The notes below the pieces were generated by a model that saw only the letters and a list, made by a program, of their open reading frames with translations, was not told the DNA's origin and ran no database searches. This document shows positions 5,986-6,562 of a stretch of DNA of 64,000 bases, one piece after another. The first letter of the stretch is position 1, and every line of letters starts with the position of its first letter. This DNA is from Halobacterium sp. CBA1132 (GTDB lineage: Archaea; Halobacteriota; Halobacteria; Halobacteriales; Halobacteriaceae), in assembly GCF_001485535.1 (NCBI RefSeq), contig NZ_BCMZ01000001.1:248001-312000 (forward strand), written 5' to 3'. Position numbers and translations under genes: made by a program.

Positions 5986-6426
5986 ATGAGCACACCGTCG
6001 CAGCGGAACGCACAGAAACCGATTCGCGTCGCCGACGGCGACGAACTAGACGACGTTCTCGCCGCCCACGACCGCGTGCTCGTGGACTTCTACACGAAGG
6101 GCTGCTCGCTCTGTCAGGCGATCGAGCCCGTACTCGGGAACGTTGCCCGAGAGTTCAACTCTCAGGCAGGCAGTCAGACGCAGTCTGACGACGTAGCGCG
6201 CGCGACGGGCATCACGGTGGCGATGGTCAACCCCGGTAACGACATCTCGCTGGTCGACGAGTGGTCGATTACGAGCGCGCCGACGCTCGTCCTCGTGGAG
6301 AGCGAGGCGTCGGAGGCGCCTCAGGGAGACGGCGAAGCCGTCGACTACGAAGAAATCGCGCGGCTCGCTGACGGCTTCAAGGGCGGCGACGACATCGAGG
6401 CGTTCCTCGACGAACACCTCGACTGA
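5986..6426 (+). CDS. Thioredoxin-like protein with palindrome-encoded inserts
   Basis: This 146-aa thioredoxin-fold protein has the active site CSLC (residues 41-44, in FYTKGCSLC) instead of CGPC, and the cis-proline in SAPTLVL. It should act as a thiol-disulfide oxidoreductase in the cytoplasm, but partner proteins are unknown. The gene is unusual at the DNA level. Perfect inverted repeats lie at 6149-6163 (arms GAGAGTT/AACTCTC), 6173-6189 (GTCAGAC/GTCTGAC, loop GCA), 6304-6322 and 6328-6342 (GACGGC/GCCGTC, loop GAA). The first two encode an in-frame insert (FNSQAGSQTQSDD) that ordinary thioredoxins lack between helix 2 and strand 3. The 3' end is duplicated immediately downstream. Confidence 0.85.
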   Translation: MSTPSQRNAQKPIRVADGDELDDVLAAHDRVLVDFYTKGCSLCQAIEPVLGNVAREFNSQAGSQTQSDDVARATGITVAMVNPGNDISLVDEWSITSAPTLVLVESEASEAPQGDGEAVDYEEIARLADGFKGGDDIEAFLDEHLD

Positions 6427-6562
6427 GTTAGTCGCGCGGCTCGCTGACGGCTTCAAGGGCGGCGACGTTCGGAAGACGACGAAGTCGTCTTCCGCAGCCC
6501 ATCAGAACGCGAAGCGTTCTGAGGACGACATCGAGGCGTTCCTGGACGCGAACCTCGACTAG
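6356..6562 (+). repeat. Duplicated 3' end of thioredoxin gene interrupted by a double-hairpin element
   Basis: Bases 6356-6390 recur without change at 6432-6466. The remainder of the gene end (6391-6426) recurs at 6527-6562 with a few changes. Between the two halves of the second copy is a 60-bp segment (6467-6526) made of two perfect hairpins: arms GGAAGACGAC/GTCGTCTTCC with loop GAA (6471-6493), and arms TCAGAACGC/GCGTTCTGA with loop GAA (6502-6522). The 60 bp is 20 codons, has no stop in the thioredoxin frame, and the second copy still ends in a stop (TAG, 6560-6562). This looks like a remnant of a tandem gene copy carrying a small palindromic insertion element. Confidence 0.85.

Follow-up and report, generated by a model that had tools for sequence, protein, structure and literature searches.

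The short hairpins clustered in and behind a thioredoxin gene of the window (the whole 64-kb stretch of Halobacterium DNA that was analyzed) are very probably copies of 45- to 60-bp mobile elements that carry no transposase, target GAC, putatively move as single-stranded DNA, and are kept in genes through a hydrophilic reading frame. Mobility as such, a conclusion drawn by sequence comparison, can be held with high confidence; the single-strand step is tentative.

Insertions in and behind the thioredoxin gene

The features discussed below are assigned to two families, A and B. R1 is a covariance model of family A, whose type is the 60-bp block, and R2 is the model of family B, built from the 45-bp block and from the 51-bp block, which is a divergent member.

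5986..6426, + strand: trx, thioredoxin-fold host of two in-frame insertions (146 aa; Pfam PF00085, E=1e-9)
6148..6198, + strand: insertion 1, 51 bp, divergent family B (hairpins GAGAGT-TCA-ACTCTC and GTCAGAC-GCA-GTCTGAC; in-frame peptide ..REFNSQAGSQTQSDDVA..)
6301..6345, + strand: insertion 2, 45 bp, family-B double hairpin (R2, 68 bits; in-frame peptide SEASEAPQGDGEAVD)
6356..6431, + strand: copy 1 of a tandem 76-bp unit, the final trx codons and stop (direct repeats D4/D5; one unit only in relatives)
6432..6560, + strand: copy 2 of the trx 3' end, interrupted by insertion 3 (past the stop codon, in another frame)
6467..6526, + strand: insertion 3, 60 bp, family-A double hairpin (R1, 83.9 bits; GAC^GTTCGGAAGACGAC-GAA-GTCGTCTTCCGCAGCCCATCAGAACGC-GAA-GCGTTCTGAGGAC^G)

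The trx gene comprises 438 bp in the window and ∼345 bp in the same-genus orthologues, and nucleotide alignment with these orthologues attributes the excess to the two insertions of 51 and 45 bp. The hairpins at 6149-6189, which the earlier note had taken to encode an insert in the thioredoxin, indeed lie in frame within a stretch that is missing in all 11 same-genus orthologues aligned. Insertion 1, with ends that are uncertain by a few bases, matches R2 at 36 bits, but its sequence belonged to the R2 training set; its fit to family B is weak, and its left flank has no GAC. Insertion 2, with boundaries uncertain by 3 bases, is missing in 10 of the 11 orthologues and is found only in genome G011 (locus L033), where both GAA-loop hairpins of its counterpart are intact, in contrast to the decayed copy of the window. 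PDB matches to the window trx did not span its inserts, and a structure prediction made without an alignment (pLDDT of 37) was left out of the evidence.

Perfect hairpins with 3-nt loops are located at 6149-6163, 6173-6189, 6328-6342, 6470-6494 (11-bp arms), and 6502-6522 (9-bp arms). The hairpin at 6027-6043 is also perfect, is aligned without gaps in the relatives, and looks like ordinary coding sequence. With 6 hairpins (arms of at least 6 bp, 3-nt loop), the 577-bp stretch is the densest spot of the window; the chance expectation is ∼49 per 64 kb, or ∼0.4 per 577 bp. The cluster of six inverted repeats reported earlier is real, although not every member is perfect: the segment 6304-6321 contains the perfect palindrome GAGGCGCCTC, yet one pair is non-Watson-Crick when the segment is folded as a hairpin, and its counterpart in L033 is intact with a GAA loop.

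Behind the gene, positions 6356-6391 are identical (100%) to 6432-6467, and 6388-6424 match 6524-6560 at 89%. The respective offsets of 76 and 136 mean that copy 2 is interrupted by a 60-bp block, which consists of 20 open codons read in the frame of copy 2, just as the earlier note had described for its GAA-loop hairpins. Copy 1 thus represents the empty site for insertion 3, whose boundary is ambiguous across the 4-nt GACG common to the target and the element end. None of the same-genus trx orthologues has this block. Judging from its sequence context, copy 2 is probably untranslated and unexpressed, because it is located past the TGA of trx, in a different frame, and without an evident start.

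Two haloarchaeal families of double hairpins

The distribution of both families was surveyed by model searches combined with fetched loci. With R1, family A was detected in 241 of 292 haloarchaeal genomes, including ∼13 copies in the genome that contains the window (E≤1e-5). In a 247-genome sample of the phylum, all 39 carriers were haloarchaea, with none among the ∼200 other members. The exact family-A pattern was compared to the genomes of 84,980 species, and all 80 loci among the matches listed were haloarchaeal. Family B is present in 20 of 39 relatives (R2, E≤1e-3). The family-B element of insertion 2 is also found in frame within dapD and lpdA, and in G011 four near-identical family-B copies reside each in a different, unrelated gene.

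In both families, base pairing is conserved much better than the bases themselves. Among 117 distinct family-A copies, 98.8% of the stem cells are paired, with 384 two-sided versus 11 one-sided changes (shuffles, 0 of 500), in an alignment that was fitted to R1 and is therefore biased toward structure; when the first eight copies were aligned independently of the model, 14 two-sided and no one-sided changes were counted. The family-B stems are likewise 98.8% paired, with 74 two-sided and 4 one-sided changes. Only 24 of the 2,070 family-A stem cells contain G-U pairs, 11 of these 24 at a single position, which suggests a DNA rather than an RNA hairpin. The initial proposal of a single family of insertion elements needs correction, as there are at least two, A (the 60-bp block) and B (the 45-bp block and, as a divergent member, the 51-bp block). 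Neither can GAA or GCA loops serve as a hallmark: the loops, like the stems, vary among copies, and the conserved parts are the linkers (GCAGCCCATCAGAA in family A and CAGGCAG in family B, conserved class-wide) and the ends that adjoin GAC.

Clean empty sites were found in several genes. At the site of the family-B element, orthologues of dapD and lpdA lack exactly 45 bp; in tnpB from a single genome, the 60-bp family-A element is present in two copies and missing in the third; and the inserts in LpdA, TrpB, and LeuRS are unmatched in alignments with PDB homologues. Together with the trx sites, these provide the dispersed family with empty sites in relatives that had been named in advance as support for insertion elements. 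Neither of the two outcomes named against them, conservation of the same bases in distant thioredoxins or a lack of hairpin pairs elsewhere in the genome, was observed. The junctions read GAC^[GTTC...GAGGAC]^G in family A and GAC^[RGMGAG...GTCGAC]^GRCG in family B. Both families adjoin GAC on insertion and terminate in GAC, with an ambiguity of 2 to 5 nt; given that the tnpB flank is GGC, GRC is the safer wording for the family-A target. The target and the element end have just these 2 to 5 nt in common, and no longer target duplication is apparent.

Additional double hairpins were noted in these genomes. A sister family with the linker TTCGCACACCAGAA and the end TTCTGGGGACG, often near tnpA or tnpB, is represented in L064, L066, L067, L073, L090 (2906-2966), L092 (112-172), and L224 (3040-3100). 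A third double hairpin, GTGGTTCGAAAGGCGC..TTTCGTCATCACGAAAGACGG..CTTTCGAACGA, has three copies in the window's own genome (G000; L068, L069, and L071). In L171, the C-terminal region of tnpB (near 1500-1760 in the tnpB sense) contains a double-hairpin insert, TTGTCGAGG-GAA-CCCCGACAGGCTGTCAGAC-GTT-GTCTGACAAC, that adjoins a family-A copy. An IS1341-type tnpB lineage found in many genera has a fixed family-A element in antisense orientation within its C-terminal coding region (L087-L103), possibly overlapping the region of the guide-RNA scaffold.

Reading frame and encoded peptides

A codon-usage caller applied to the element flanks classified 22 of the family-A copies within genes as in frame, all of them sense and in one frame, and 3 as frameshifted. 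For family B, again in one orientation and frame, the numbers were ∼27 and 1. Here, three weak antisense hits that overlapped sites already counted were excluded, and two dapD copies, for which the caller had been misled by a short 5' flank, were scored as in frame. Some of the copies counted are orthologous, as with CobN in four genomes, so that not all of them are independent. The frame in use is hydrophilic, and the other open frames are mostly Arg rich or hydrophobic. The recurring peptides are (D)VRKxx..HQNxxxSED in family A and (G/S/R)EAS(K/E)TP(Q/R)ADGEAVD in family B.

Genes with in-frame elements include those for LeuRS, TrpB, LpdA, MenB, a CopA-like ATPase, and CobN. The earlier suggestion that such elements enter coding sequences without breaking them describes the majority of copies inside genes. 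It does not extend to the frame-breaking copies in L054, L086, L108, and L197, nor to family A outside Halobacterium, where most copies in an exact-pattern sample across the class scored as intergenic or noncoding. Coding insertion thus appears to be a minority habit of family A, although the caller, having this window as its training set, misses part of the coding flanks in other genera. The in-frame state is best read as what survives selection, with the inserts assumed to occupy surface loops.

Several individual copies deserve mention. The 62-bp family-A copy in L054 (G000:C1:2468371-2468432:-) lies out of frame, with a stop, in an acyl-CoA thioesterase-like gene. TrpB carries family-A inserts in two haloarchaeal families within one codon of the same place (L088 in G180 and L096 in G273), reflecting either a hot spot or gene transfer. 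The family-B copies L115 and L135 of G009 have an identical 1-bp deletion, which breaks the lpdA frame there and could be due to the spread of a deleted copy, to conversion, or to an assembly error. In CobN, four Halobacterium genomes have a family-B insert at one and the same position, and a similar insert occurs in another family (L125, L126, L130, L158, and L137); these inserts would be useful to date decay. The 19-residue insertion in the Halobacterium CysRS (PMC3940603) was considered as a further element and rejected: CysRS of similar length was found in 23 of the 24 relatives searched, only that of G032 being shorter, and the extra stretch has no likeness to A or B in the aligned subset.

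Mode of movement and relation to known systems

In the proposed mechanism, an element made of two 3-nt-loop DNA hairpins and a conserved linker would be placed beside GAC with no longer target duplication. It would move in trans as single-stranded, hairpin-folded DNA, with cutting and joining at GAC similar to that by HUH/Y1 (IS200/IS605-like) enzymes. In acidic haloarchaeal proteins, GAC followed by G would provide a phased codon context, and entry through this junction would give an open frame that encodes a hydrophilic linker of 15 to 20 residues. With such a frame, insertions in tolerant loops would survive and those in other frames or of other lengths would be purged; the inserted copy would then decay like ordinary coding sequence. 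Single-stranded movement next to GAC is suggested by the DNA-level hairpin conservation, GAC at the target and the element end, the lack of a longer target duplication, and the association with IS605-type elements. Of 114 copies, 33 lie within 300 bp of TnpA/TnpB homology versus 7.9% of bases, an enrichment that is partly inherited, as it includes tnpB lineages with one ancestral insertion. In L232, an element is apparently inserted inside an IS605 left palindrome.

No partner enzyme was identified for families A and B. The Y1 transposase (PF01797) is present in 11 of 20 relatives and missing in the carriers G003, G005, G027, and G028. It was rejected as the sole partner, given that its presence does not correlate with copy number and that R1 and R2 hits occur at few tnpA loci. 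Viral carriage was rejected as well, with no exact matches in IMG/VR.

The elements could represent terminal-only PATEs, i.e., core-less IS605-type transposons with two subterminal palindromes moved by a Y1 transposase. This would explain the two-hairpin anatomy and the IS605 enrichment, and 52-bp terminal-only forms without target duplication are described for Haloquadratum in the parts consulted of PMC3119063. However, the three IS605 copies of this genome have ends (..TTTAGCTGAA / GGGTAGTTCAC) unlike those of A or B, a mismatch on which a terminal-only IS605 origin was rejected here; a full-length element with A-type ends was not found in this genome, and several carriers have no Y1 transposase, which makes this an unlikely source. 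A short relative of the Haloquadratum SMRs, nonautonomous repeats that favor IS605-type palindromes, is similarly improbable. Such repeats would share the absence of a long target duplication, the equally elusive mobilizer, and the enrichment at IS605-type elements (including the insertion in L232), but are set apart by their description: a length of 80 to 110 bp, conspicuous inverted repeats at the ends, and copies that are commonly >95% identical, as opposed to 45 to 60 bp and variable stems.

Two explanations without mobile DNA have very little to recommend them. If the hairpins were regulatory RNA structures or terminators of local origin or duplication, their stability and the many intergenic family-A copies would be expected. 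This is contradicted by the clean empty sites in coding sequence; the elements read in frame within core genes, the scarcity of G-U pairs, and an Rfam search with no match at gathering thresholds also speak against it, and it is highly improbable. Surface loops do differ in length, and template switching can turn quasi-palindromes into perfect ones, so that ordinary loop variation in trx through slippage or palindrome-templated errors might be envisaged. However, near-identical dispersed copies in unrelated genes and linkers conserved class-wide leave it hardly any likelihood. Mobile GAC-targeted hairpins remain the preferred reading.

Small hairpins that are thought to move as single-stranded DNA are familiar from the REP/BIME elements and their RAYT (Y1) transposases; REPs are mainly extragenic and have a GTAG-type foot. 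The nearest haloarchaeal entities are the PATEs and SMRs of Haloquadratum, as far as the consulted portion of PMC3119063 describes them. PATEs, palindrome-associated transposable elements, resemble A and B in being noncoding and in having hairpins near both ends, and they include very short terminal-only forms; their lack of target duplication compares with the 2 to 5 nt shared by target and element end in A and B. However, their palindromes match IS605 ends, in contrast to A and B ends when compared with the three IS605 copies tested from their own genome, and in-frame coding insertion is absent from their description there. SMRs, small mobile repeats of 80 to 110 bp, are likewise nonautonomous, without transposase, associated with IS605, and of unknown mobilizer, and they have no target duplication; their ends form prominent inverted repeats and their copies are >95% identical, whereas the 45- to 60-bp A and B elements vary widely in their stems.

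The nearest analogue, by comparison of features, is provided by the bacterial Rickettsia palindromic elements (RPEs) of ∼150 bp (PMC10969869, citing Ogata et al. 2000, 2002). According to the sections consulted, these too are palindromic, multicopy, divided into several families, inserted in frame into unrelated protein genes, and translated into a recurring peptide. RPEs are viewed there as selfish DNA that gives rise to protein segments, as A and B would be; they differ in their size and their Rickettsiales hosts, compared to 45 to 60 bp, two 3-nt-loop hairpins, GAC association, and a haloarchaeal distribution. Translated mobile DNA in essential enzymes has so far been documented mainly in Rickettsia, and it appears here across an archaeal class and in two families, so that one can directly test how new protein segments, and some halophile-specific loops, have originated. 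The open-access full texts searched contain no description of archaeal in-frame palindromic insertions, and an earlier one may exist. It is conceivable, if somewhat short of an even chance, that haloarchaea possess a class-wide system of 45- to 60-nt hairpins, moved as single-stranded DNA to GAC, in which target and ends set the frame and seed 15- to 20-residue segments in core enzymes: an archaeal counterpart of the RPEs with a built-in frame-keeping rule.
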